Of a DNA stretch of 64,000 bases, positions 2,934 to 57,432 are shown one piece after another. Within the stretch, counting starts at the first letter, position 1; the number at the start of each line of letters is the position of its first letter. The stretch is from Stentor roeselii. Its lineage: Eukaryota > Ciliophora > Heterotrichea > Heterotrichida > Stentoridae. The notes beneath the pieces were generated by a model, which ran no database searches, was not told the origin of the DNA, and was given only the letters and a program-made list of their open reading frames with translations. The stretch covers positions 154,336 to 218,335 of the forward strand of contig RSEH01000021.1 in NCBI GenBank assembly GCA_006503475.1. The letters run 5' to 3'. The position numbers and the translations under genes were made by a program.

Positions 2934-4934
2934 CTAAAGTGGCTGACTATAAAGATCCTTAAGTACTTCCTCATACTTGATCTTCGCCTGATGTCTCATC
3001 AACTTCTGCGTTGGGGTGAGTAAATCATCAGGTGTCCAAGCAACAGGTTCCAAATGAATCTTCTTAACGATCTCAAAGCCATGAAGCTTCTCCTCTTTGC
3101 CCAGGCGGGTCATTTCTTCATAGATTTTTTCCTTTAATCTCGGGTCTGCGCAGATGTCTTTGAAACTAGTTTCATTTGCAATGCCGACTTGAGGAGCCCA
3201 GTGCTGTCTGATGAACGCTTCATCAGGCACGACTATCCCGACGAGGTAGTATTGGAAGCTGTCTCCATATACGAAGATTTGAGAAATGAAGTAACTCTTA
3301 GTATATGCGATTTCAATCTTTTCAGCTGCCACGTATTCACCTTGGGCTAGTTTGAAGAAGTTCTTCTTACGGTCTATTATCTTTAAGGCACCTTTGTAGG
3401 GAAGAATCACTCCAACGTCACCCGTGTGAAGCCAGCCTTCTTCGTCTATTGTTTCAGCTGTTTGCTCGGGAAGTTTGAAGTAACCTTGGAAGACTGTTGG
3501 GCCTCTGAAACAGATCTCACCTCTTGGAGTTGGTCTGCCTTGATCGTCAACGTCGGTGCTTAAGTAGTTCATGTCGGGAACGTCGTTTAATTTTAACTCG
3601 ATTGTTGGAACTGGACCTCCAATAATTCCAGCATAATTCTCATAAGAATGAGTCAAAACACTTCCAGCACAAGTTTCAGTTTGTCCATATCCCTCCAAAA
3701 ACGAAGCAGAAAAAGCAATTCTCAAAAGTTTAAGTACCTCTGCCGCGATAGGAGCAGATCCAGTAACCATAATCCTAACCCTTCCTCCTAAAATAAACTT
3801 AAGTTTTCCAAACACCATGTTATCCGCAAAGTGATGAGTAGTAGATCCAGTCTTATTAAAGTGATTATCTTTCAACTCAATGCACTTCTTAATAATTTCA
3901 GCTCTGGGGCCTTTAGCAGCTGAGAACATCTGATTAATAGTATCATAAAACCTATTGAAAAGTCTTGGAACAGAGATAAAAACAGTAGGTTTTAAAGCTG
4001 TCAAGTCATCTCTAAGTTTAGTGACATCTCCAGCGAAGAATCCAACAGCAGCTCCTTCAGACAAGACCATGTGAACCATGAGTCTATCAAACATATGAGC
4101 CAAGGGGAGATACGAGATGTAAGTATCCGTTGAAAGTATTTTAAGATGAGTGCGAGAGACTCCAGCAATTGTACTGACCATGTTTCTATGAGAGATAATC
4201 GCTCCTTTTGACTTTCCAGTAGTTCCTGAAGTATAACAAATAGTGAACCAATCATCAGGGGTAGGAGGATGCTCCTGTCCTTCAGGGTGCAAGTTCTCAA
4301 GTTCAGCCAATGAATGAACTTCAAGTCCTTGTTCCTTTGCAGCAGTTCTTAATTCCTCAGAGGCATTATCAGAGGTAAACACGTAATGAAGAGACTTCAC
4401 CAAACCTTGTCCCTTCAGCTTGATCAGGTTTTTCGCGAGGTACTCAGGGCAAAATATTCCTTTCATCTGAGTCTGGTCAACAATCATGTCAATAGTGTCA
4501 GCCTGCTGAGTGTCGTACATCGGAACTGAAGTGATTCCTTGAGACATCAAAGCCAAATCAGCCACGAGCCACTCATGTCTGTTCTTTGAGTAAATTCCGA
4601 CAAAGGATCTTCCTTCAACTTCTCGATGATGAAGTCCGAGTTTCTCTAGTCCAAAGCCGACTTTTCTAGAAGTTTCTCTCAGCTGAGAATAAGTACTCCA
4701 GACGTATTCACCGAGTTTTCCGTCTTCTAATACACGTCTCTGGCCTGAAGCGTTTGATGAACCGTGAGTCGCTGCTGAGTTCGCGAAACTTTCGTGAAGA
4801 GTCACTCCTCCTGAGGTTATTTGGGCGTCAAAGTTACCTTCAGGATTTCGGAAGATTCCTGTATTGCCTGGCTTGGCTGAGTCTGGCACTTCGACTGTAT
4901 ACCTTGCGTCAGTGATTGAATTTACTCCACCCAT
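2934..4934 (-). CDS. Long-chain acyl-CoA synthetase (ACSL type)
   Basis: This is an ATP-dependent fatty acid-CoA ligase that activates long-chain fatty acids for lipid synthesis or beta-oxidation. The 666-aa protein has the AMP-binding motif YTSGTTGKSKG near residue 234, GYGQTET near 413, the WLHTGDVG motif near 497 and DRKKNFFKLAQGEYV near 517. Its length is normal for the eukaryotic ACSL family. No N-terminal membrane anchor is visible. Instead it begins MGGVNS, which fits the N-myristoylation consensus (Gly2, Ser6), so lipid anchoring is possible; this is inference. It ends 30 bp from the stop of the convergent gene at 747-2903. A second adenylate-forming enzyme, of a different subfamily, lies at 10823-12295. 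Confidence 0.95.
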   Translation of the reverse strand: MGGVNSITDARYTVEVPDSAKPGNTGIFRNPEGNFDAQITSGGVTLHESFANSAATHGSSNASGQRRVLEDGKLGEYVWSTYSQLRETSRKVGFGLEKLGLHHREVEGRSFVGIYSKNRHEWLVADLALMSQGITSVPMYDTQQADTIDMIVDQTQMKGIFCPEYLAKNLIKLKGQGLVKSLHYVFTSDNASEELRTAAKEQGLEVHSLAELENLHPEGQEHPPTPDDWFTICYTSGTTGKSKGAIISHRNMVSTIAGVSRTHLKILSTDTYISYLPLAHMFDRLMVHMVLSEGAAVGFFAGDVTKLRDDLTALKPTVFISVPRLFNRFYDTINQMFSAAKGPRAEIIKKCIELKDNHFNKTGSTTHHFADNMVFGKLKFILGGRVRIMVTGSAPIAAEVLKLLRIAFSASFLEGYGQTETCAGSVLTHSYENYAGIIGGPVPTIELKLNDVPDMNYLSTDVDDQGRPTPRGEICFRGPTVFQGYFKLPEQTAETIDEEGWLHTGDVGVILPYKGALKIIDRKKNFFKLAQGEYVAAEKIEIAYTKSYFISQIFVYGDSFQYYLVGIVVPDEAFIRQHWAPQVGIANETSFKDICADPRLKEKIYEEMTRLGKEEKLHGFEIVKKIHLEPVAWTPDDLLTPTQKLMRHQAKIKYEEVLKDLYSQPL

Positions 4935-31911: not shown

Positions 31912-34900
31912 ATGGAAGTGACCTTAGCAACAATCCAGTTCTACGCACGAGAAAAGTACTGGCATCATATCATCGACGTGGCTCAAGAAGAACTTCGTCG
32001 TGGTCAAGACCCTGTCCTCACCTTTTGGAAGTCCTTCGGAATGTTCAAGGAAGGCAGTGTAGTCGAAGCCATTCGTGAATTAGAGTCCGTCTTTAAAAAG
32101 AGAGAAGTTCAGTTTCCGGCTTGCATCGCTCTTCAAGTCTATCATAAGAGCTGTAAAGTCGTGGATGAAGAAGCGATCACACGTTTGAAGACTCAAACAA
32201 AAGATTTCAAAAATAATGCACCTGATTCAGCGGTTTTGTTGGCTTGTCAACTTTTTTGTCATCTTGGAATGGCTGATAAAGCAAGAGGGCTGGTTAGTGA
32301 AGTCGTCAGTCGAAATGGGGAAAACCCGGGAGTTTTAATGACTTATGCTTGGATTGAAGTTTATGCTAATGGAGACTTGAAAGAAGCGGCAGGGGTTTTT
32401 GATCAGGTCATGGATGAAGTTGGAGAACAGATGTATTCGAGGTACTTGGAATCGGTCTTGGGCAAGATTAAGGTGCTGGAAATTTTGAAGGACTATAAGA
32501 ATATGGTCGAGTATTTAAATGATTTGCTTATTAAGGCACCCAGATTCATACCAGGACTAGTCGAAAAAGTGAAAGCACAAGTCTTAATCGGCAACTGGGA
32601 CGACATAGTGGAAAGTGTCCAAAGAGTCCTGTTAGCAAACAACAAAAACATCGAAGCCCTAAGAATCTGGACATTCTACTCCCTAGCCAGAGAAGCCAGT
32701 TACGACGTAGCTGTAGAAAAGCTAAAAGATTTAAAATCCGCTCTTCAACAAAAAGAGCCAAAAAACGCAAAACTTTACATCGACATAATAAAGCCGATAG
32801 TTCGTATCTCAGGAAGAAAACATCAAGTCCTAGAAGTATGTCTGATGATAGCTCAAGAGGCAAAAAAAATCAGTCCAAACAATTCTCAAGTTCTTCTCGA
32901 AGTCGGCGAAATCCTTCGTCTTCTCGGCGACTTCAAAGCGGCAATCCAGACCTTCAACGAAGCGACTCAATTAGAAGAAGACAACAGCCAAGCAATCAAC
33001 AAAATAGTCTGGTGCAAGATCCTTCAAGGAATGTTCGCCGAAGCCTCTCAACAGATGGAATTTCTTTTAGAAGTCGAGGAAAACTCAGGAAGATCTGCAG
33101 AGTTAGCATTTATCGCAAGTCTTTTAAAATGGCGTAAAGACCAAGACAAAAAAGAAGCCCTTCGACTGTTAGAAGAGACTTTATCCCTTCACATTGCAGC
33201 GAGTAAACAAATGAGTCCAAGTTTAGAGTTTTACGCAAAGTTGAACCCTGACTTTCTCCTTGAAATCGCTCGTGAACATCTTCAGTACCTTGGCTTGAAG
33301 CCTCTTTCAAAAACAGCGAAAGCCCCTCCTTACCTGGTGCGTGTCACGAAGCTTCTGGAGACTATCACCAAGCAGATCCCTGGAATCATTGAAGGTCATC
33401 TTCTGCTTGCAAAGTCACGGTTTATAGCGAATGACCATGCAAATGCTTCGAAGTTCATCGCGATTTCTCTTCAACTCGACCCGGACTGCATCGACGCGTT
33501 GATCTTGTCGGCGCTGATCAGTCTTCAAGCAGGGCAGTACGCCTCGGCTCAGACGACTTTAGAGCAGGCCTTGGCCAGAAGCTTTACTATTCGTGAAAAT
33601 CCTTTATTTATGCTTGTAAAAGGCCAGGTTGAGATGAAACTCAAGAAATTTCATGATGCTATCAAAACCTTCGAAGCAACAATGGCGCTTCCTGGAATTC
33701 GCTCTGCTGGGGAAAATAAAAAAACTGGAGTTTTAGGAATTTCTGTTGAAGACCGTGGAAGTGTCTTTGCTAATCTCGCTGTTGCTTATGCGGAAAATGG
33801 AGAAATACCGAAAGCCACAAGGATCATGGCTGAAGCTATTGGAGAGTTTGCAGGGACTAGTGTTGAGGTCATTGTTGTCCTTGCTAATAGTGAAATCGCG
33901 TTGAAAAAAGGTGATATTAAGCAAGCTCTTAATATTTTAAACGGAATCCCTTCTGATAGTCCTAGTTTCAAAGATGCGAAAATCGCTCAAAGTGAAATTT
34001 ATTTAAACAAAATGTCGAATCGAAGACTTTACGCTAAATGTTTCTCGGATATCGTGAATAGTGATGAAAGTGTTGAAAATTATCTGATGTTTGGTGAGGC
34101 TCTTATGAGGATTCAAGAACCGGAAGAAGCGATAAAAATTTATGAAAAAGCTTTAAGACAAAAACCTGATGACTTGTTTTTGACGAAAGAAATCGGCAGG
34201 GCGTTGGTTTTAACTCATGACTATCAAAGGGCTATTCAGTATTACGAGTCTGCTGTTCGAAATGATCCTAAAAAGACGGAATTGCTTACTGACCTTGCAC
34301 ATCTTTACCTTAGGCTTAAGGATTTTCAGTCTGCGAATTTAATTCTTGAGCAGGCGTTGAAAAAGGAACCGAATGATATCAACTCTATGAGAGAAGCAGC
34401 TCAGAATTATTTGTTACAGGCTCAGGTATTTTTGAAAAGTAATAAGGGAGGGGATTCTAAGATTTTAGGACCGATTTTAGAAGCTGCCAACTCGCTTAAA
34501 AATGCGGGGATTATTCAGAAGGATCTTCTTGCTTCGTCTAGGGATATGTCTAATGAACAGATTGAGAAGGAGAGGAAGAACTGCTCGAAGATCTTTTTTC
34601 ATCTGGGCCAATACTTCGAACAACGCGAAAGAAACTACCCACAAGCCCTAGCCTACTACAACGAGAGCGCTCAATACGACGACATGAACATAACCTCAAT
34701 CCTCCGCGCAGGCTACTTATTCGAAAAGCAAGGAGACTTCCAAAAATGCATTCAATACTGCAACCGAGTTCTCCGAATCGACCCATCAAACGAAGAAGCT
34801 GCGACGCTAATGGCCGAGATCCAACTTCAGGCCTCTTCCGTCGACGAAGCTTTAGAAACCTACAAAAAACTCTTAGAAAACAAATCCGATCAATACAACA

Positions 34901-35823
34901 TCCTGTCAAAGCTAGTCCTGACCTTAAGACGAGTAAACAAGCTCGAATTCTTCGAAAAGCTTTTAAAAAACGCTGAAAGAAAAAAGTCATCAGAAGCCGG
35001 TCAGGCCTACTGCAGAGGACTTTTCTTCAGATTTAAAGGACAAGTGCGAGAAGCCCTTGAAGAGTTCAACAAATCCAGAACTGACGTGGTCTACGGAGTC
35101 CCTAGTCTCGAGCGAATGATCGACATTTACCTGAACCCTGACGACGACATCCCTTCAGGTTCAGTGCGTCTTTCGACTGACAATGTGACAGCAGCTGAAA
35201 GCTTAGTTGAAGAATTGATTTCCAAGTCTAACACCCTGAAAAGTCTTACTTTGAAAGCCTTGGTCCAGGTCGCCAAAGGGAAAAAGGATTCAGTTGAGAA
35301 AGGACTTGAACTGCTTACAAGTATCTTTGAAAATAACCAGACTTATGTACCTGCAATGATCGCTTATACTGTCGCTAAGCAAGCCTTGAATAAGGACTCA
35401 GATGCCAAGAGCATGCTTAGGAACTTCTCGAAGTACCCTTATACTATTGAATATGCTGAAGAGTTTGAAAAAGGATGGCTTATGCTCGCACAAGTCTTCA
35501 TCGATAGTGATAATAAAGACTCTGCTGTTGAACTCCTTCATCGCTGCTTGAAATTCAACCAGTCCTGTGGCAAGGCGAAGGAAATGCTCGGTACGATCAA
35601 AGAATCTGAAAACAAATTCAATGAAGCAAGTGAATTCTTTCAATCCGCCTGGAAAATCTCGAAAACTGCTTCAATCGGCTTCCGCCTGGCCTTCAGTTTC
35701 ATGAAAGCGAAAAAGTACGTCCAAGCCATTTCAATTTCAAAGGAAATTCTTTCCATGTACCCTGACTACCCCAGGATCAAGTCAGAAATCCTCGACAAAT
35801 GCAGAACTTTGGTAAGGGCTTAG
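31912..35823 (+). CDS. TTC21B: Intraflagellar transport protein IFT139 (TTC21B)
   Basis: This is a subunit of the IFT-A complex, which drives retrograde transport and cargo entry in cilia. The 1,303-aa protein is almost entirely tetratricopeptide repeats (for example AIKIYEKALRQKPDDLFL, AIQYYESAVRNDPKKTEL, CIQYCNRVLRIDPSNEEA). The family-typical start has ATIQFYAREKYWHHI. Length equals that of TTC21A/B in animals and algae, so it is complete. No intron is needed. Composition switches sharply inside the gene (A+C-rich 32545-33000, G+T-rich about 33600-34595, A+C-rich 34605-35000). The next gene starts 20 bp after its stop. Confidence 0.95.
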   Translation: MEVTLATIQFYAREKYWHHIIDVAQEELRRGQDPVLTFWKSFGMFKEGSVVEAIRELESVFKKREVQFPACIALQVYHKSCKVVDEEAITRLKTQTKDFKNNAPDSAVLLACQLFCHLGMADKARGLVSEVVSRNGENPGVLMTYAWIEVYANGDLKEAAGVFDQVMDEVGEQMYSRYLESVLGKIKVLEILKDYKNMVEYLNDLLIKAPRFIPGLVEKVKAQVLIGNWDDIVESVQRVLLANNKNIEALRIWTFYSLAREASYDVAVEKLKDLKSALQQKEPKNAKLYIDIIKPIVRISGRKHQVLEVCLMIAQEAKKISPNNSQVLLEVGEILRLLGDFKAAIQTFNEATQLEEDNSQAINKIVWCKILQGMFAEASQQMEFLLEVEENSGRSAELAFIASLLKWRKDQDKKEALRLLEETLSLHIAASKQMSPSLEFYAKLNPDFLLEIAREHLQYLGLKPLSKTAKAPPYLVRVTKLLETITKQIPGIIEGHLLLAKSRFIANDHANASKFIAISLQLDPDCIDALILSALISLQAGQYASAQTTLEQALARSFTIRENPLFMLVKGQVEMKLKKFHDAIKTFEATMALPGIRSAGENKKTGVLGISVEDRGSVFANLAVAYAENGEIPKATRIMAEAIGEFAGTSVEVIVVLANSEIALKKGDIKQALNILNGIPSDSPSFKDAKIAQSEIYLNKMSNRRLYAKCFSDIVNSDESVENYLMFGEALMRIQEPEEAIKIYEKALRQKPDDLFLTKEIGRALVLTHDYQRAIQYYESAVRNDPKKTELLTDLAHLYLRLKDFQSANLILEQALKKEPNDINSMREAAQNYLLQAQVFLKSNKGGDSKILGPILEAANSLKNAGIIQKDLLASSRDMSNEQIEKERKNCSKIFFHLGQYFEQRERNYPQALAYYNESAQYDDMNITSILRAGYLFEKQGDFQKCIQYCNRVLRIDPSNEEAATLMAEIQLQASSVDEALETYKKLLENKSDQYNILSKLVLTLRRVNKLEFFEKLLKNAERKKSSEAGQAYCRGLFFRFKGQVREALEEFNKSRTDVVYGVPSLERMIDIYLNPDDDIPSGSVRLSTDNVTAAESLVEELISKSNTLKSLTLKALVQVAKGKKDSVEKGLELLTSIFENNQTYVPAMIAYTVAKQALNKDSDAKSMLRNFSKYPYTIEYAEEFEKGWLMLAQVFIDSDNKDSAVELLHRCLKFNQSCGKAKEMLGTIKESENKFNEASEFFQSAWKISKTASIGFRLAFSFMKAKKYVQAISISKEILSMYPDYPRIKSEILDKCRTLVRA

Positions 35824-35843: not shown

Positions 35844-36947
35844 ATGGAAAGGAAAAGACCTGAAACTTGGAATTTCAAAGAAGTCTCTGAATGGCTTCAG
35901 ACCATCGGACTTCCTGTCTATCGGGAAAAATTTGAACAAATCCGCATTGACGGTCCTTTACTGTTTGAAGTCCAGGAAGACGACTTGAAAAACGACCTTC
36001 AGGTCACGATTCGTTTGCATCGTGTGAAGATTTTACAGGAAATCCAGAAACTTCGAGAAATGAATGAAGGTGGATTAGTAGTTGAGTCTTCTGATAGTGT
36101 GATTGACACTGGCGATTGGGAGGTTTTAGTGCTAAAGGCCATAGAAGGGACCTTGAGCAACCACTCGTACCTCATCGGCCGACATGGAGCATCGGTTGGG
36201 CGTAACTCAGCTTCGAACGACATCGTGATAAGTGAGAGCTTTGTAAGTCGAAAGCATTGTGATATCAGATACTTGAATCTAAGCAACCAGTTCATTTTAA
36301 AAGACCTCGGATCGACTACTGGAACCTTTTTAATGGCAAGAAGTAGTCTCGAGCTGGAATTGAACTCGATGTTTCAAATGGGACTTAGTGAGTTTAAAGT
36401 CACTTCAGTTCTTTTTAACCCCTTCGGACAGGCTCGAAGTCTTATTCTTCAGGTCTATGAAGGACCTGCCAAAGGGAAAGAATTCAAAATCTTTGCTGAT
36501 GGAGTCAATATTGGAAGAGACCCTAGCAATAAAATCGCCATCAGGGAAGACTCGCAGATGAGCTCTCATCATGCGGATATTGTTCTTAGGAATGGAAAGT
36601 TCTGGCTTAATGATGTAGGGTCTACTAATAGAACCTGGAGAAGAATTAGTGCGGAAGGCGAACCGAGTGAAAATGTTCCGGTTGTTGTTGGAGATGTTAT
36701 TAAAATTGGATCTACTGTCCTGTTGGTACAAATGCCTGACCCTTCTCAGATTGATGAAATTAATGAGAGTAGGAATGATGGCGAATCGGTTAAAGAAGAA
36801 AATGCTTGTAAGATATGTTTTGCGAGAGAAGCTGATGTTTGTTGCTACCCTTGTGGACATCTGATATGCAATAAGTGCGCTTTCAAATGCAACCTCTGCC
36901 CAATCTGCAGAAAGGACATCCAAGACCGAGTAAGGCTGTTCAAGTAG
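35844..36947 (+). CDS. SAM-FHA-FHA-RING protein, probable E3 ubiquitin ligase
   Basis: The 367-aa protein has four modules. An N-terminal SAM domain (about 8-70) begins WNFKEVSEWLQTIGLPVYRE. A first FHA domain (about 90-185) has VGRNSASNDI, SRKHCDI and LGSTTGTF. A second FHA domain (about 205-300) has IGRDPSNKI, SSHHADI and VGSTNRTW. The C-terminal C3HC4 RING (about 320-362) has CKICF, CGHLICNKC and CPICRK. FHA domains bind phosphothreonine peptides, so this looks like a phosphorylation-reading ubiquitin ligase. I do not recognise this combination as a named family. It starts 20 bp after IFT139 and ends 20 bp before the next ATG. Confidence 0.9.
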   Translation: MERKRPETWNFKEVSEWLQTIGLPVYREKFEQIRIDGPLLFEVQEDDLKNDLQVTIRLHRVKILQEIQKLREMNEGGLVVESSDSVIDTGDWEVLVLKAIEGTLSNHSYLIGRHGASVGRNSASNDIVISESFVSRKHCDIRYLNLSNQFILKDLGSTTGTFLMARSSLELELNSMFQMGLSEFKVTSVLFNPFGQARSLILQVYEGPAKGKEFKIFADGVNIGRDPSNKIAIREDSQMSSHHADIVLRNGKFWLNDVGSTNRTWRRISAEGEPSENVPVVVGDVIKIGSTVLLVQMPDPSQIDEINESRNDGESVKEENACKICFAREADVCCYPCGHLICNKCAFKCNLCPICRKDIQDRVRLFK

Positions 36948-38670: not shown

Positions 38671-41232
38671 ATGGACGACCGAAAGCTAGTAGGAGCAGCT
38701 CAGTTAAACGTGATAATCGAAACTGCGGAATTCGCAAAAGAATATCACTACTTCATCACAGTTCAACTAGAAGGTGAATCAGAAAAGCGTCGAACTGACA
38801 TATCAGAGCGAGTAAACAATCCCCAGTTCCTAGCCCGTACATTTTTCCTTCCTCTTCCAACATCAAAGATAGAGCTAAACATGCGTTTGATTTTCCAAGC
38901 ATTCGTAGTAACAGTGCGAGACAACGAGCCAAAAGAGCGAGGCCAAGCGCGTTTATTAGGAGAATGCGCAGTTGACCTGAGTCCTCTGGTCCCTGCCTTG
39001 ACAGACGTGCGAGGAGGAGGGACAAAGCAACACCTGCGCTTTGTAAGGACTTTAGAAGACCAACAAACAACAGTGGGTCGCTTTTTAGTTACTTTAAGAG
39101 TGATGGCAGCGCAACAAGACCTGCAAGAAGCGGACCCTCTTGACATTTATCATGCTTTGCCTACACCTGACGCTTTTCGACAGTTCATGTGGAGGGTCAG
39201 GGTGGACTTCAGGTCAGCGACTGATGTTCCTCTTAATAATGCTTCTGCTTCAGGCCTCGCCTCTCCTTACCTGGAGTTCGGGTGGAGTCACTACGTGCAA
39301 CAGAGACCTGGGGACAATGAGACTGAAACTTCTCATATTATTCAGAATTCAAGAAATCCTCTTTGGAATTACCAGTTGTTTTACTATAGCAAGGAGAATA
39401 TCAATGAACTTGATGGGTTTTTTTGGGTGTTCCTTAAAGAAAGAGTTGCTACAAATAGTCTTGAAAGTCTTACTATTCCTGTTTCAGCTATGAGGGCTTT
39501 TCACCCTGTGCACTTTGAAGTTACTACAAATCGAGGAGATAGTGGAGGGATCAGGTGCAAGCTTTACTTTTCATTGACTATCGAACAGTCACTTAGTGAC
39601 ACTGCAAGTCTGATTGAAGAACTCGTCGATATCGCGATCCTGGGTGTTAACTGGTCAGTTGCCCCTACTATCATCAACAGGATCATGATTGGAATGACTT
39701 CTCATGGAAATCAACTGCGAGAACTACCTTTACTTCAAGTGGATTTAAATGAGGAAAATAGTGTCGCTTTGGAACTCTCTTCGCATCGATCTCAGAGGTC
39801 TTCTGTGTTTTTAAGTCCTGTTCTGCCTTTGACGGTAAGAGCTCTTGATAATGAGTATGGAGCTCAAGCGATTTTTACTGTGCCTAAAAGCTTTTTGAAC
39901 TCGCAGGTCAGCTTTCATTTGTTTGTGCGAGATGAGAATAATGTTGGACTTGTCAGACATCAAATACCTGAGACTTTGGCTGCTTATACTGAAATCGTTG
40001 ATGATCATCTCAAGTCTTCTTTGCAGTAATAGACAGATAGGATGAATAAACCTCTTGCTATTCCTTTTATTTGGGCTGGAACGCAAAATCCTGCACTTAA
40101 TCGAGCTTTGAATCAACTGGTCTCTACGCTTCAGATATCGGTTTTTAGACTTAATGTATCTTTTAGGTAGAAACAAAGACCGCCAAGTGGATTGAATAAG
40201 TCGATTATTGACCCGAATTTGTCGGAGAAGGTCATGGCTAAAGCTTCTCTTAATTTCATTTCAAATAGTCCGATGCATAGTATAGTTCCTCAACAAGCTG
40301 GCGAAAGATGGGAACTCCTCTCAAGAGAGCTTCAACAAAAGCAAGAACTAATCCACCGTCTAATGAAAGAAAACGATGAAAAAAGCGACGCCCTGAAGCT
40401 AACAGGAGCTGAAATCATCGACCTTCGCCGCCAAATCAAGCTTCTTCAAAGTGAAAACTCAGTTCTTCGAAAGCGTCTTCACGAAGAAGAAGAAATCGAC
40501 GTAGGAGCAGTAGTCAACCGAGAAGTAGAACGAATGAACAACGAAGAACTAAAATCAAAAATCATTAAAATCGCTCAAATGTACCGAAACGAGCGAGGTC
40601 GAAACGAGGAATTCTCAAAAGCGATCAAACAAGCTCAAGACGAGGTAAGCGAGGCCTACAAATACAAAGCAGAACTCGACAAACTTCGAGAAAAACACGA
40701 AAAAGAAATGCTTCGAATGCAGAAAATTCAAACACAAGTCGATAAGGTCAAGGTCTATCGCGAAACAATAAAAAAACAAGAAGCTGTCATCTCAAAACTC
40801 GAAAAAATCCTTGACAGGACTTTGAAAGACTCCCAAGCCGCCCGAGAAACTGCTCAGGAACTGGAAAAACTTAAGACTGAGAACTTGGAACTGCAGAGAA
40901 GGATCAAGGAAAGTGCCTATGGAGGAAAAGACGCAAATGAACAGAGTCGACAGGAGATTAGAAGGCTGGAAAGACTTGTGCAGGAATTGAATGAACAGCT
41001 CAGGTCGAAAAGACCTGATACTAGAGAAATTCGCGGGGCGACTCCCATGCAGGATGATGAAAGGATTAGACTTGAAGTCGACTTGCAGAAAGCTGAACTA
41101 CGCATGCAGGCTATGCAGGAGGAAATGGATAGGAATGCTATTAAGTATGCCAGAGAAATTTCTCATTATAAAGTACTTGTGGCTGAGAAACAAGGAGTTA
41201 TTGATACTATGCGTGTTGGGTTAAATGATTGA
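38671..41232 (+). CDS. CCDC33-like C2/coiled-coil protein (three exons)
   Basis: Exons are 38671-40025, 40041-40155 and 40171-41232, with 15-nt introns between; the product is 843 aa. An unspliced reading gives two separate frames and a lost middle. The first about 450 residues contain two C2-type beta domains: one at about 10-150 (LNVIIETAEFAKEYHYFITV) and one at about 170-330 (SPYLEFGWSHYVQQRPG, SRNPLWNYQLFYYSKE). After a linker (NKPLAIPFIWAG) the last about 310 residues form a long coiled coil. C2 domain(s) followed by a C-terminal coiled coil is the arrangement of CCDC33, expressed in motile-cilia tissues of animals. Family assignment is moderate; the gene model is strong. Composition switches from G+T-rich to A+C-rich near 40290. 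Confidence 0.85.
40026..40040 (+). other. 15-nt intron (phase 2)
   Basis: GTAATAGACAGATAG, with A at position 10. As a phase-2 intron its GTAA start gives an in-frame TAA if retained. Splicing rejoins TTG CAG ATG AAT in frame. Confidence 0.88.
40156..40170 (+). other. 15-nt intron (phase 0)
   Basis: GTATCTTTTAGGTAG, with A at position 10 and terminal in-frame TAG. It follows the 115-nt middle exon of the CCDC33-like gene. Confidence 0.85.
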
Positions 41233-41598: not shown

Positions 41599-42477
41599 TT
41601 AATCAGCTAATCGATTATTGTTTCCTGTTAACAGATTTGTAATGAAATCTATTTTCGAATTTAATTCGCCGATTTGTCCCTTAAGTTGACCTACGTCATC
41701 TCTAAGTTGACTCCTTAGTTGACCTATCTCACCTTTCAATTCAACTACATCTTCTTTCAATTGACTTGTTTCACCTTTCAAATGACTTACATCAGTTTCC
41801 AGTTTTCCAATTTTGAAATCTATTTTTGCCTCGAGTTGAGAAATTTTTCCTTCGAATTTGGTAAATTGAGGTCTTATATACTTGATCACTTTTTGATAGA
41901 TGATATCAGTTTGGATTGCATAACTTTCGAGGTCTTTTATACTTACCCAGATGCATCCAGCTATCGAGTCACCGAAGTCATCGAAGGGCTTCTCACTTGG
42001 ATCACCGCCGTTGTAGTATACCAAATATTGACACCTATTGATTTTTAACTTGAAGTCTTTAATTTGTTGAGCATTTTTGAGAAAAATAACTGTGACCGTG
42101 CTCATTATGATCGTGTCACGTTTGCAAATATTTGAGCTGGTGACTCTGAATTCTTCCAGCTTGCATCCTTCGGGTTCCATCACTACCAGAGTGAATGATG
42201 GATAGCCAGTTTCTTCTTGGCTTATTTCACCAACCCGAAGCTTTTTGTTCATTCTTAGAGAGCCCTGGATTTTCTCTAAGAAATTAAGAATTTCTTTCGA
42301 ATCTAGAGTTCCCGATTCGAGTGGAAATTTTTGAGAGTGTTTTGGAGAACCATGGCCTATTGGAGGTAATGAACTGTGCGAACTGCTACTTTTTGAACTA
42401 GTTAGAGCTTTTCTTTCGTGACTGCTTTTCCTGCTTTCACTGCTTCCTTTGCTAGACTGCTTTCTTTCAGATTCCAT
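41599..42477 (-). CDS. Hypothetical protein with Ser-rich head and heptad tail, 292 aa
   Basis: Residues 1-55 are Ser/Lys-rich and probably disordered (SSKGSSESRKSSHERK). Residues about 60-205 look globular and beta-rich (YPSFTLVVMEPEGCKLEEF, MSTVTVIFLKNAQQIKDF, CQYLVYYNGGDPSEKPFDDF). The C-terminal 80 residues are a striking run of heptads built on Q-L-K-G/E-x-x (ISQLEAKIDFKIGKLE, SQLKEDVVELKGEIGQLR). The globular part may be a binding domain displayed on a coiled-coil oligomer. No family recognised. It faces the PAP cluster. Confidence 0.75.
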   Translation of the reverse strand: MESERKQSSKGSSESRKSSHERKALTSSKSSSSHSSLPPIGHGSPKHSQKFPLESGTLDSKEILNFLEKIQGSLRMNKKLRVGEISQEETGYPSFTLVVMEPEGCKLEEFRVTSSNICKRDTIIMSTVTVIFLKNAQQIKDFKLKINRCQYLVYYNGGDPSEKPFDDFGDSIAGCIWVSIKDLESYAIQTDIIYQKVIKYIRPQFTKFEGKISQLEAKIDFKIGKLETDVSHLKGETSQLKEDVVELKGEIGQLRSQLRDDVGQLKGQIGELNSKIDFITNLLTGNNNRLAD

Positions 42478-43986: not shown

Positions 43987-45309
43987 ATGTTTTCAGTCTT
44001 CCATCTTCTGATTACGATTGCGTCAGCGGGATACCTTTACCCGGAACAGATTCATTTATCCTGGACTGAGAATGAAAACGAGATGCGAGTCACCTGGGTG
44101 ACATTTTGGGCAGTTTATTCCCGAATTGAATATCGACCAATCCTTTGTTCCGACATCCCGGAGCCCACTAAGTGGTTGTATGTCGAGGGCAGCTACAACA
44201 GATGGGATGCTGGCACGAAAACCTCTCATATTGAGTATGTTCATACTGGAGTGATTCCGGGTCTTCGCTCCGAATGTTACTATGAATACCGAGTCGGAAA
44301 TGGAATGTTCTGGTCAGATCTTTATATGTTTTCGGGAAGGACTCCTGATTACTCAGCCCCTTATGACACCAAGAAAGTTGAATTGATCGTTCTAGGTGAC
44401 TGGGGAACTGGAGAGCTAGGTCAATATACAAAACATCTCCTAGGACAACAAGCGAAAGTCAGAAATTTCGACGCAGTCCTGCACGTAGGTGACTTCGCAT
44501 ACGACATGGACGACGATAACGGAAAAGTGGGAGATACCTGGATGAACCTAGTCCAAGAGATATCAGCGAACTACCCTTACATGACTCTTCCAGGAAACCA
44601 CGAAAAGCATGCGAATTTCACTCAATACAAGAACAGGTTCAACATGCCTTTTAACGACGCAGCGAACGGAACTTCATATTTTTACTCCTTCGACATGGGG
44701 CCTGCTCATTTCATCATGATGAACACAGAAGTGTACTTTTACTACTCAAACATCACTCAAGTGACTCAAATGAACTGGTTGTTAGACGATCTGAAAAAAG
44801 CAAATGCAAATCGAGATCTGAGACCTTGGCTTATTGTCTTGAGTCATCATCCTCTTTACTGCTCTGTCAATTGGAGAATCCCTCTGCTGAGAAACAATGG
44901 AGACTGCGGAGTGGCTGCGATTACGATGCAGAAAGCCTTGGAAGATTTGTTTTACAACAATGGAGTCGATGTTTATTTCCAGGCCCATGTGCATAACTAT
45001 GAAAGATGCTCTGCTATTTATAAGAATCAGACTGTCCCTGGAAAGGAGGATGGACTCAATCTTCATGTCGGGCCTAAAGCTCCGATTTATATTACTAATG
45101 GAAATGCCGGGAATAATCATGGACATAATGATCCTACGAGTCCCACACCGCAGGACTGGGCTCAGTACTGGACTAATGACTATGGGTATGGAAGAGTCGT
45201 TGTTCATAATAACACTCATCTGTATTATGAACAGTTCAGTGCTGTTGAACTTGACTTGATTGATTATGTCTGGATTGTTAAGACCCAGAAAAATTATCAG
45301 GACAATTAG
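43987..45309 (+). CDS. Purple acid phosphatase, copy 1
   Basis: This is a secreted or lysosomal binuclear metallophosphatase that hydrolyses phosphate esters. The 440-aa protein starts with a signal peptide (MFSVFHLLITIASAG). A fibronectin-like N-terminal domain follows (about 20-125, IHLSWTENENEMRVTWVTFW). The metallophosphatase domain carries the family's metal-ligand blocks in order: LGDWGTG, VGDFAYD, LPGNHE, VLSHHPLY and QAHVHNYER. The last block has Ala where GHxH is usual. Many N-x-S/T sites suit a glycoprotein. It is the first of two intact tandem copies, after a relic copy upstream. Confidence 0.95.
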   Translation: MFSVFHLLITIASAGYLYPEQIHLSWTENENEMRVTWVTFWAVYSRIEYRPILCSDIPEPTKWLYVEGSYNRWDAGTKTSHIEYVHTGVIPGLRSECYYEYRVGNGMFWSDLYMFSGRTPDYSAPYDTKKVELIVLGDWGTGELGQYTKHLLGQQAKVRNFDAVLHVGDFAYDMDDDNGKVGDTWMNLVQEISANYPYMTLPGNHEKHANFTQYKNRFNMPFNDAANGTSYFYSFDMGPAHFIMMNTEVYFYYSNITQVTQMNWLLDDLKKANANRDLRPWLIVLSHHPLYCSVNWRIPLLRNNGDCGVAAITMQKALEDLFYNNGVDVYFQAHVHNYERCSAIYKNQTVPGKEDGLNLHVGPKAPIYITNGNAGNNHGHNDPTSPTPQDWAQYWTNDYGYGRVVVHNNTHLYYEQFSAVELDLIDYVWIVKTQKNYQDN

Positions 45310-45703
45310 TAGTTAGATAATCAGATTTAATAAGAATTCTAATAGTCTGGGTTTAGAAAGGGAAAATTTTTTAGTTAAGGGTTTGAAAATTTTGATTTTC
45401 GAGATTTTTAATGTCAACTGCCTTTCAAAGTGAGGATTAGTCTTTGGATTTAGTGATTTATTGTCAGTTTTAGTCAATACCAAGTATGTTTGAATAAACT
45501 TCAGAAACACAATTAAATCTAACAAAAAATTATTTTTCACAAAGAAATGTTCATAATTTTGTTTAAAAGTGCATCTAAGCCTTATAATTTGATGATCTCT
45601 ATACCCTTACCCGATTCAAGACTACTTAGAATGAAAATCTTTTATAAATTATTATATAAATGTCTAATACCAAAATGAATCTTAAATCCAGATCACCAAT
45701 ATA
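45310..45703. other. Intergenic region between tandem phosphatase genes, 394 bp
   Basis: AT-rich spacer; no frame or repeat seen. It does not obviously resemble the 5' flank of copy 1, so promoter sequences of the two copies have diverged. Confidence 0.55.
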
Positions 45704-47017
45704 ATGATTTTCATCAGCATCGTCTTGAAACTAGCGTCAGCCGGTTGGCTTTCCCCAGAGCAAATTCACTTATCCTGGACAGAAAACGAAAACGAAATGC
45801 GAGTTACCTGGGTGACATATTGGCCCGTCGCCTCATACATCGAATATCGTCCACTACTTTGTTCGAACATAGAGAAGCCTACCGAGTGGCTGAGGGTCAT
45901 TGGATCTTCGATAAAATACGATGAAGGGACTCTGACAACACGTTATCAATATATTCACACTGGAGTAATGACTGATCTTAATCCAGAGTGTTATTACGAG
46001 TACAAAGTCGGAAATGGCCTTTACTGGTCGAATGTCTTTTTGTATTCAGGTCGAACTCCTGACTATTCCGCTCCTTTCGATACCTCAAAAGCTGAATTCA
46101 TTGTTCTAGGAGACTGGGGCACAGGATTCAACGGGCAGTACACAAAGCATCTTTTAGCCCAACAAGCAAAAGTTAGAAATTTCGATGCGGTTTTGCATGT
46201 CGGAGATATGGCTTATAACTTAAATGACCTAGAAGGGGTCATTGGAGATCGTTGGCTTAACATGGTCGAAGAAGTTTCAGCGAATTTCGCATACATGACT
46301 CTTCCAGGTAACCACGAGACCCACAACAACTTCACTCAATATAAAAACAGGTTCAACATGCCATTCAATGACGCTGCGAATGGCACTTCTTATTTTTACT
46401 CTTTTGATATGGGACCAGCTCATATCATTATGATGAACACTGAATGTTACTTTTATTACTCCAACATCACCCAAGTCACACAAATGAACTGGCTGTTGGA
46501 TGACTTGAAAAAAGCTAATGCGAATAGAGAGCTCAGGCCTTGGCTTATTGTTCTCAGTCATCATCCTTTGTACTGCTCGGTTAATTGGAGACTTCCTTTG
46601 TTGAAGAATAATGGAGACTGTGGAATTGATGCTTTGAAATTACAGAAGGCCTTAGAAGATGTTTTTTATGAGAATGGAGTTGATATCTATTTTCAGGCAC
46701 ATGTTCATAATTATGAGAGAAATGGACCGATTTATAAAAATCAAAGTATTCCTAGTCAAGTTGATGGAGAAAATTTACATGTTGGCGCTAAAGCACCGAT
46801 TTATATTACTAATGGAAATGCTGGAAATTCTGAAGGACATAATGATCCTACTAGTCCTACTCCTCAAGATTGGGCGCAGTATTGGTCTAATGATTATGGG
46901 TATGGAAGGATGGTAATTTATAACAATACTCATTTGTATTATGAACAGTTCAGTTCACCTGAAACTGACTTAATCGATTATCTTTGGGTTGTTAAAACTC
47001 AGAATCGATACAATTAA
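45704..47017 (+). CDS. Purple acid phosphatase, copy 2
   Basis: The 437-aa paralogue of the preceding gene is near-identical over long blocks (for example SPTPQDWAQYW). It has the same metal-ligand blocks, here LGDWGTG, VGDMAYN, LPGNHE, VLSHHPLYC and QAHVHNYER. The signal peptide is short (MIFISIVLKLASAG) and differs from copy 1, as does the 5' flank. Synonymous sites differ throughout, so the duplication is not very recent. Both copies keep all ligands and look functional. Confidence 0.95.
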   Translation: MIFISIVLKLASAGWLSPEQIHLSWTENENEMRVTWVTYWPVASYIEYRPLLCSNIEKPTEWLRVIGSSIKYDEGTLTTRYQYIHTGVMTDLNPECYYEYKVGNGLYWSNVFLYSGRTPDYSAPFDTSKAEFIVLGDWGTGFNGQYTKHLLAQQAKVRNFDAVLHVGDMAYNLNDLEGVIGDRWLNMVEEVSANFAYMTLPGNHETHNNFTQYKNRFNMPFNDAANGTSYFYSFDMGPAHIIMMNTECYFYYSNITQVTQMNWLLDDLKKANANRELRPWLIVLSHHPLYCSVNWRLPLLKNNGDCGIDALKLQKALEDVFYENGVDIYFQAHVHNYERNGPIYKNQSIPSQVDGENLHVGAKAPIYITNGNAGNSEGHNDPTSPTPQDWAQYWSNDYGYGRMVIYNNTHLYYEQFSSPETDLIDYLWVVKTQNRYN

Positions 47018-55569: not shown

Positions 55570-57432
55570 TTAATTACTGCTTATTTGAGGGAGGTCTGAC
55601 TGGTTCCTTATCTTCATTTTTTCAAGGATCTCTTGATTCTGTCGCTCGAAATGAGAAGTGACTTCCTGGATCTCTTCAGTGGTGGCCTTCGGGTTGTCTT
55701 CCACCCACTTGCTCATCTCTCTTACACGTTCACCAAGTCGATTTCTTTCCTCCTGGTCAAGTGAGATTTTTTCCAGGTAAAACCGGACGTCAGCTACTTT
55801 TGACTCGAGCAGGTTTTTAGCTTCCAGTTGTTCCTTGAGTTTTTTGTCTTGTCTACTGAAAAACTCGGCTTCTCTACAAAGTCGTTCAATGTCAGCATGA
55901 GTGAAGCAAGCCCTGTCACGATGAATACTCATTTGGTTCGTCTTCAAAGTGACTTTATCAACAGCTGTGACATTTAAAATACCATTAGCATCGACTTCAA
56001 AAATTACTTCAATCTGAGGAATGCCTCTTGGAAGAGGCGGAATGCCTTCAACTGTGAAGCTTCCTAAAAAGTTGCAGTTTTTCGTCAGTGGTCTTTCGCC
56101 TTCGAAGACGTGAATTGTGACACTTTTCGCGTTGTCTGAAAATGTGGTGAAGGTCTGAGACTTTTTCACTGGGTAGGTCGTGTTGCGAGGTAAAATCTTG
56201 GTCATCACTCCGCCTGTTGTTTCGATGCCTAAAGAAAGAGGAAGCACGTCTAGCAAGACCATATTTCTCAATCGCTCGTTTTCTTCACCTTGAAGAATTG
56301 CACCTTGAATCGCGGCTCCTACTGCAACGGCTTCATCAGGATTTATGCTGCGATAAAGCTCTCTACCGCCGAAGAATTCTGAAATTATCTGCTGGATCTT
56401 TGGTATACGCGTCGATCCACCCACTAGGACAATCTCGTGGATGTCTCGCTTGTTTAGTTCTGCGTCTTGCAAAACTATTTGAATTGGGCCTGTCACTGCA
56501 CGGAAATAGTCTAAGTTGAGTTCTTCGAACTTGGCCCTAGACATCGTTGTGTAATAATCAAGAGACTCAGCCAAGCACTCAACTTCAATAGCAGCCTGAG
56601 TGGTACTAGACAAGGTGCGCTTCGCTCGTTCACATGCAGTTCTCAGTCTTCTCAAAGCTCTCGGGTTATTCATGATATCGACGTCTGTTCTTCGAAAAAA
56701 GTCATTAGCACAATACTCGACCATGCGACTATCAAAGTCTTCTCCACCCAGATGAGAGTTGCCAGCAGTTGAAATGACTTCAATAACGCCACGGTCAATA
56801 TTAAGCAGCGAGACATCATAAGTGCCTCCTCCAATATCAACAATCAAAGCATTATGTTCCCCTCTCCTATTATCAATACCATATGCGATCGCTGCGGCAG
56901 TCGGCTCGTTAATAATTCGTCTCACGTTAATCCCTGCAATGACTCCAGCATCACGTGTGCCTTTCCGTTGAGCGTCATTAAAATAAGCAGGAACAGTGAT
57001 CACTGCATTTTTCACTTGTCTGCCCAGGTAAGACTCAGCGATTTCTTTCATTTTGTGCAAGACCATTGCTGAGATTTCTTCAGGGTAAAAAGTTTTAAGT
57101 TCGTTTTGATACTCGATGCGAATCTGGATCTTTCCTTCTTCTGATGCGATCAACGTGAATGGCCAGAGTCTCATGTCTTTTTGGATCAATGGGTCTGAAA
57201 AATTACGGCCGATGAGACGCTTCGCGTCGAATACTGTGTTGCGAGGGTTTCTTGCTACTTGGTTCTTTGCTGCTTCACCGATTATTCGCTCGGATGAAGT
57301 GAAGGCCACGTAAGACGGAGTGGTTCGGCCGCCTTGGTCGTTTGGGATTATTTCGACGTGGTTGTTTCGCCAGACTGCCGCGCAGCTGTAAGTTGTTCCT
57401 AAGTCTATTCCGATTGTTATCTCTGAGTTCAT
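55570..57432 (-). CDS. HSP70-family chaperone without EEVD tail
   Basis: The 620-aa protein has the full HSP70 signatures: [15 protein letters not shown] at the start, [34 protein letters not shown], and [13 protein letters not shown]. It also has a substrate-binding domain ([20 protein letters not shown]) and a helical lid. There is no signal peptide, presequence or KDEL, so it is cytosolic or nuclear by default. It is slightly short and ends [12 protein letters not shown] instead of the EEVD that cytosolic HSP70s use to bind TPR co-chaperones, so it is likely a divergent, perhaps non-inducible paralogue. Confidence 0.96.

Follow-up and report, generated by a model that had tools for sequence, protein, structure and literature searches.

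Can synonymous base choice flip abruptly within a single reading frame, and if so, does the flip belong to the gene or to the DNA? This question is raised by the gene for an IFT139 (TTC21-type) protein of the ciliate Stentor roeselii, located at 31912-35823 (+) of the window analyzed here, the final 64 kb of a 218-kb contig in a genome of 44.4 Mb and 522 contigs. Its uninterrupted frame of 1303 amino acids mostly matches the Pfam family ARM_TT21, and a sequence-only reading had described sharp switches within it between blocks rich in G+T (keto, K) and blocks rich in A+C (amino, M), each on the strand named. All six 60-nt counts behind this description were exact on recount: G+T made up 37/60 at 32401-32460, 35/60 at 34501-34560 and, in a coiled-coil gene further downstream, 36/60 at 41161-41220, and A+C made up 40/60 at 32641-32700, 44/60 at 34621-34680 and 39/60 at 40381-40440. 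The switches had been placed near 32545, 34600 and 40290, and a segmentation blind to those coordinates gave 32540, 34604 and 40292. We compared the largest K-to-M jump of each gene with those obtained in 1000 within-gene shuffles of synonymous codons. The largest jump of the IFT139 gene, at 34606, was equalled in none of the shuffles and that at 40285 in the coiled-coil gene in one. Similar alternation had been suggested for HSP70, ACSF3-like, CNB and phosphatase genes; none of these had an individually significant K-to-M jump, with matching jumps in 129 (HSP70), 989 (ACSF3-like), 933 (CNB) and 622 and 882 (phosphatases) of 1000 shuffles. In the second phosphatase the notable change was the opposite one, M to K (12 of 1000).

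The first IFT139 boundary (32534-32546, with no strand assigned, as for all boundaries and segments below; segmentation at 32540, switch score 35.9 at 32536) separates a keto side at 32301-32540 (+), with a mean synonymous keto residual of +0.18 over 75 sites, from an amino side at 32541-32780 (+) with a mean of -0.33 over 76 sites. At the second boundary (34598-34612; segmentation at 34604, score 46.2 at 34606), the corresponding values are +0.25 over 78 sites at 34365-34604 (+) and -0.33 over 77 sites at 34605-34844 (+). The stretch between them, 32541-34604, forms one sawtooth segment, whose + strand starts out A/C-rich on the left and becomes G/T-rich towards the right, and the segmentation called no extra boundary within it. 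Among the 121 K-to-M switches scored in our main data set of 244 kb, that at 34606 had the top score, and 32536 was also included. This data set comprised 164 kb of contig C137 and 80 kb of contig C1; in total we covered about 290 kb of the 44.4 Mb of this one genome, with open reading frames (ORFs) called mechanically. The DNA is gene-dense, with an ORF coverage of 77% in C137 and 72% in C1; "non-coding" denotes all DNA outside called ORFs and hence includes some missed exon.

The pattern extended beyond single genes. Throughout the window, the autocorrelation of synonymous choice at codon lags 1-10 exceeded that of 100 within-gene shuffles at C/T sites (z = 19) and at A/G sites (z = 7), as did the cross term between both site types (z = 7). 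The cross term was positive, indicating that T-ending and G-ending codons occur together; an effect of GC content would have made it negative. Both C137 and C1 displayed the same third-base autocorrelation, which had faded by about 90-100 codons, and a two-state model trained on C137 performed better on the held-out C1 by 817 nats (18,559 codons). The autocorrelation decayed smoothly with no ripple at 150-200 nt, which argues against nucleosome phase, one of the causes proposed earlier. At lag 1 the correlation between C/T and A/G choices was close to zero or slightly negative (-0.043, standard error [se] 0.012, in the window; -0.019, se 0.007, in C137) and at larger lags positive; this is a codon-pair effect separate from the sawtooth.

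The switches have a direction that the sequence-only reading had not described: sharp ones run nearly always from K to M, and the return is gradual. With a window of 20 codons and a threshold of 12, K-to-M jumps outnumbered M-to-K jumps by 8 to 0 in C137 and 6 to 0 in C1, and with a window of 30 and a threshold of 14 by 19 to 2 and 13 to 2. At a low threshold and wide window the M-to-K rises became the more numerous, with 175 against 116 in C137 (window 40, threshold 8), as expected from gradual ramps. The ratio of K-to-M to M-to-K likewise shifted with the score in 8,149 codons from 11 further loci, going from 5 versus 0 (at least 30) through 10 versus 4 (at least 24) to 14 versus 20 (at least 18). 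Segmentation with a sawtooth model (alpha 1.2, lambda 400) gained 469 in C137 and 304 in C1 in the observed polarity and 268 and 206 in the reversed one, which also gains since it is able to follow blocks. Boundaries called on top-strand C/T sites alone were accompanied by a drop of 0.186 (se 0.024) at the held-out A/G sites, positive in 64 of 79 cases; conversely, boundaries called on A/G sites predicted a C/T drop of 0.243 (se 0.034; 47 of 56 positive). Reverse-polarity calls by the same procedure yielded jumps about 3.5-fold smaller (-0.053, se 0.022, for 70 calls; -0.069, se 0.022, for 66). The held-out profiles remained one-signed to about 400-500 nt on either side of the boundary and then reversed. 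The cyclic order of states in a six-state model was a hint only and was not used as proof.

The DNA is divided into segments of irregular length. Along each of them, when a strand is read 5' to 3', synonymous and non-coding sites shift gradually from A/C to G/T, and at the boundary the composition falls back abruptly to A/C-rich. A rising ramp is its own reverse complement, so that on either strand T is favoured over C for about 300-500 nt before the boundary to the 3' side of that strand. For the abrupt edges within genes, one possible cause named earlier was patchwork conversion by a donor of different bias, and germline segments inverted and re-joined during development would produce similar edges. 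Both predict sharp edges of either polarity. The combined counts were 14 K-to-M and 0 M-to-K edges at window 20 and threshold 12 and 32 and 4 at window 30 and threshold 14, and on the basis of this one-way polarity we rejected both explanations, to which we assign practically no probability.

Gene-level and DNA-level causes make different predictions for neighbouring genes on opposite strands. The top-strand correlation between sites 300-700 nt apart in neighbouring genes was -0.031 (se 0.005) for same-strand pairs and -0.030 (se 0.008) for opposite-strand pairs; a coding-strand effect would flip the sign, which was kept. At 0-120 nt, the correlations were 0.054 (se 0.022) and 0.044 (se 0.030), the latter not significant by itself. 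A correlation was also present between coding bases and the non-coding bases next to them (0.035, se 0.006). Gaps between genes longer than 60 nt behaved as K-to-M boundaries, with values of 0.19 to 0.31 by size class, and gaps shorter than 60 nt did not (0.007, se 0.069; random intragenic points, -0.035). In 72 gaps of 100-1500 nt, the left half exceeded the right half in G+T by 0.055 (se 0.010; 50 positive), and the left half was the richer one in all four gene orientations. This last result bears on transcription as a cause. Non-coding transcripts in the germline nucleus that diverge from or converge on the boundaries could expose one strand per side, which could yield the dyad symmetry and mark intergenic gaps. 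However, this would require damage to the template strand if the transcripts diverge, or shared end points within exons if they converge, and gene orientation made no difference in the gap halves. Transcription by itself also cannot account for sign changes within one gene, and we consider this explanation improbable.

Paralogous genes provided a further comparison. Six HSP70 paralogs (L020-L025) are 45-75% identical, and the largest jumps lie at alignment columns 339 (L020), 384 (L021), 297 (L023), 241 (L024) and 310 (L025). Among the 15 pairs, smoothed profiles correlated with r from -0.25 to 0.77, and only L021/L022 (75% identical, r = 0.77) and L021/L025 (r = 0.27) exceeded all circular shifts. 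A duplicate pair close to the window, on its upstream side, which we take to be OTU-like by motif, agreed closely (r = 0.69, above all shifts), its jumps being separated by nine columns. Agreement was partial for the two phosphatases of the window (r = 0.41, with 7% of shifts equally high). These comparisons indicate that boundaries belong to loci and drift, and that they are not set by the protein. Codon-level selection, such as re-use of codons and tRNAs or control of the folding rate along the mRNA, would produce autocorrelation of codons inside genes. Yet the pattern crosses amino acids, both site types and non-coding DNA, its top-strand sign is kept across opposite-strand genes, and the HSP70 jumps fall at different columns. 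Non-coding continuity and the sign across opposite strands led us to reject this highly improbable explanation. The pattern is a mutational footprint at the DNA level, and neither codon selection nor patchwork conversion.

The composition on both sides of the switches was determined for the 59 of the 121 switches with a score of at least 24. Fourfold sites to the left contained T, G, A and C at.562,.196,.186 and.056, and those to the right contained A, C, T and G at.456,.252,.227 and.065. Across the switch, the share of T among C/T sites fell (.88 left,.34 right) and that of A among A/G sites rose (.48 left,.85 right). This is nearly a mirror image, but an inexact one: GC content at third positions was about.30 to the left and.43 to the right of the switch, so that some coding-strand preference is superimposed. 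GC content at codon positions 1 and 2 was flat. Sequence context was examined for the 101 switches with a score of at least 20. The C/T shift was present in every neighbour context, with its maximum before G (2.24) and its minimum after G (0.64); at purine sites, the mirror context, before C, was likewise the weakest (0.22). Both site types can be explained by a single process, in which C changes to T on whichever strand has the boundary on its 3' side. The neighbour context of the C-to-T shift may point to the enzyme or lesion involved. Amino-acid usage also differed between the two sides (chi-square 37.7, 19 degrees of freedom, p = 0.0066). Near mirror-image composition, mirror-consistent neighbour effects, non-coding continuity and the same sign across opposite-strand genes together bear out strand-asymmetric mutation, the part of the earlier interpretation that stood, whereas patchwork conversion and nucleosome phase did not. 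The mutational process is strand-asymmetric and two-fold symmetric and acts at fixed points.

How densely these points are spaced was determined by segmentation. It called 97 boundaries in C137 and 61 in C1, that is 158 in 244 kb, with mean spacings of 1.67 and 1.27 kb and coefficients of variation of 0.59 and 0.71, respectively. In simulations, coefficients near the observed 0.67 resulted from exponential as well as from mildly regular spacings; these simulations are a rough guide, their amplitude being too strong (scores of 444-756 versus 345 observed). A period of about 0.93 kb was hinted at in the autocorrelation and dismissed, its later peaks and troughs lying within about two jackknife errors; no period exceeded these errors.

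Skew sawteeth are already known at the scale of replicons, and replication had been among the causes proposed. The boundaries would then be precise origin-like sites with an A/C-rich leading strand, and each segment a miniature, sign-reversed counterpart of a human N-domain. N-domains are reported to have the same shape, a sawtooth of GC and TA skew with jumps of one polarity at one kind of site, gradual return and no reverse jump, and A and C are reported as enriched on the leading strand of Saccharomyces cerevisiae and Kluyveromyces lactis, a sign that would fit if the boundaries were origins (PMC3459929). However, a fixed origin would be needed every 1.3-1.7 kb or so, which would probably be very short for origins, whereas replication skew domains extend over inter-origin distances; the skews in the published work consulted span kilobases to megabases. 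At such a spacing most sites would be replicated passively and the skew would cancel, yet the bias at third positions is very strong, as the fall of T at strong switches demonstrates. A link to replication is possible in principle but, in our judgement, unlikely.

We also searched for features located at the boundaries. In simulations, the error in locating a switch had a median of 6 nt and a 90th percentile of 36 nt. TA was not enriched, its excess per junction being -0.06 (se 0.13) for distances up to 12 nt and -0.03 (se 0.24) for distances up to 36 nt; this test used 76 of the 101 switches, the other 25 lying less than 200 nt from a gene end. A TA at each junction is thereby excluded. At the 59 strongest switches, the motif CAGGC/GCCTG appeared 11 times at distances of up to 30 nt, where 2.6 occurrences were expected, and was discarded after replication failed (0 versus 2.8 at the 62 weaker switches; 1 versus 0.7 at 10 new ones). 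The TA result bears on developmental excision, by which a boundary would be the point where an internal eliminated sequence (IES) is removed and a smooth germline gradient would appear abrupt because its middle is missing. Excision would explain sharpness within exons, and the heterotrich Blepharisma is reported to carry some forty thousand IESs, about 70% of them intragenic (PMC9942856), in a somatic genome of 41 Mb (PMC9942806), a density resembling that of the boundaries. However, TA is reported to bound three quarters of the Blepharisma IESs, and a six-frame search of the S. roeselii genome for the PiggyBac domain (DDE_Tnp_1_7), run with no positive control, gave no match; eight PiggyBac homologs are described for Blepharisma and weak ones for Stentor coeruleus (PMC9942806). 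Excision would still need a source for the gradient, and we regard it as quite unlikely.

The reading that we favour, while holding it tentatively, is that of recurrent breaks at preferred sites in inherited DNA, followed by resection and deamination of the 3' single strand. To the left of a boundary the top strand carries the C-to-T excess, and to its right the bottom strand does; these are the strands that 5' resection leaves single, and for this reason we infer the break step. In the inherited nucleus, double-strand breaks would recur preferentially at the boundaries, with a meiosis-like programme as their simplest source. The 5' ends would be resected, leaving the 3' tails temporarily single-stranded, and cytosines exposed in them would be converted to T at a higher frequency than in other DNA, through deamination or error-prone filling of gaps. 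Over evolutionary time, opposite strand biases would accumulate on the two sides of each site, chiefly at synonymous positions. A precedent exists in human meiotic breaks, where the forward strand is reported to be single-stranded to the left of the break and the reverse strand to its right, and where deamination signatures are reported in the resected zone, including raised C>T at CpG (PMC7615360). The human case, as described there, concerns de novo mutations and 1-2 kb of resection, in contrast to an equilibrium composition over 300-500 nt that is known here from sequence alone. A genome search for protein families gave one match to TP6A_N (Spo11-type), which may be counted in favour of breaks, four cytidine or dCMP deaminase-type matches and one UDG match. 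The boundary-like behaviour of intergenic gaps longer than 60 nt also supports recurrent breaks, as do the one-way polarity, the agreement between C/T and A/G sites, the continuity into non-coding DNA and across opposite-strand genes, the near mirror-image composition, the neighbour contexts fitting a single process and the one-signed held-out profiles.

Several results weigh against breaks with resection. No GC rise common to both sides of the boundaries was found, of the kind that GC-biased conversion at recombination hotspots, itself not a universal feature, might give. Boundaries fell inside ORFs about as frequently as coverage predicts (70% versus 77% in C137 and 80% versus 72% in C1). 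Break hotspots often favour gene-free DNA. The mirror symmetry is imperfect, with coding C/T sites responding more than A/G sites, and no boundary motif was replicated in the 244 kb plus the new switches in further loci. Gene-end means were uncorrelated across gaps shorter than 60 nt (r = -0.15 for 18 opposite-strand pairs and 0.19 for 20 same-strand pairs) in what is a low-power test. Finally, a UDG-family enzyme is present, so that a simple loss of uracil repair fails to explain the strength of the bias.

Related biases are known from other DNA. In Oxytricha and Halteria, strand-symmetric bias is reported at the ends of nanochromosomes, and for the subtelomeric bias of Halteria deamination has been suggested (PMC3558436, PMC7858049). 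That bias is located at true chromosome ends (about 50 bp in Oxytricha), whereas the boundaries described here are internal, within exons of long chromosomes. In mitochondrial DNA, graded third-position bias is thought to track the time spent single-stranded. There a single long gradient covers each molecule, in contrast to the many short two-fold-symmetric units found here. Searches of the literature on ciliate skew, hypotrich composition, heterotrich genomes, breaks, origins and intragenic asymmetry, with subscription papers mostly outside this scope, listed no earlier two-fold-symmetric, one-way sawtooth through exons at the kilobase scale. With slightly more reserve than for the break mechanism itself, we propose that synonymous sites in this genome may record, like a fossil map, where inherited DNA has repeatedly been exposed as single strands, at fixed points every 1-2 kb or so, by breaks with resection or a comparable process. 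This exposure would dominate C-to-T change nearby, so that the map could be read from codons alone. Should the boundaries be break sites, a fine germline break map would be obtainable from sequence alone in a data-poor organism. Codon usage and part of amino-acid usage would then depend on position relative to the boundaries, and analyses of codon bias, substitution rate and gene transfer would be misled.

Further boundaries occur elsewhere in the window. The gene at 2934-4934 (minus) contains one at 3605-3624 (segmentation at 3608; score 45.4 at 3621; 1 of 1000 shuffles), and the gene at 35844-36947 one at 36840-36870 (segmentation at 36866; score 28.5 at 36843). The boundary of the coiled-coil gene (40042-41232, +) lies near its 5' end at 40283-40295 (segmentation at 40292; 40285 in the shuffle test). 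A weaker switch at 56533-56539 in the HSP70 gene (55570-57432, minus) scored 28.8 and was the one matched in 129 of 1000 shuffles; the segmentation called none there. Another boundary, at 45450-45540 (45494), was called in the intergenic DNA that separates the two phosphatase genes and rests on few sites (17 left, 9 right). These genes form an adjacent pair of purple acid phosphatase type at 43987-47017, are 76% identical and have about twenty more matches in the genome.

The coiled-coil gene, called CCDC33-like by the sequence-only reading, contains a 15-nt intron at 40156-40170; excision of GTATCTTTTAGGTAG preserves a single frame from the ATG at 40042. A Pfam search of 40192-41232 gave no match. 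Twelve nt upstream of this gene, a C2-domain ORF (38671-40029) ends in TAATAG, and the two may constitute either one CCDC33-like gene or separate genes. The intron length is not isolated: among candidate segments whose removal joins frames, 10 of 16 with a length of 15 nt read GTA...TAG, compared to 0 or 1 for each other length from 10 to 25, and 15-bp introns are reported as the rule in heterotrich ciliates (PMC11441545). TAA, TAG and TGA each terminate ORFs. Reading of TGA as tryptophan was not supported, as 18 of 126 ORFs end in TGA, and the standard genetic code is likely in use. In the HSP70 paralog L022 (C214:6377-8194), the matched region has one in-frame TGA, where an intron is possible. 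At 41599-42477 (minus) of the window, the predicted protein, judged from its translation, has at its C-terminus a series of short units that resemble one another and are of the LKGEI/QLK type.

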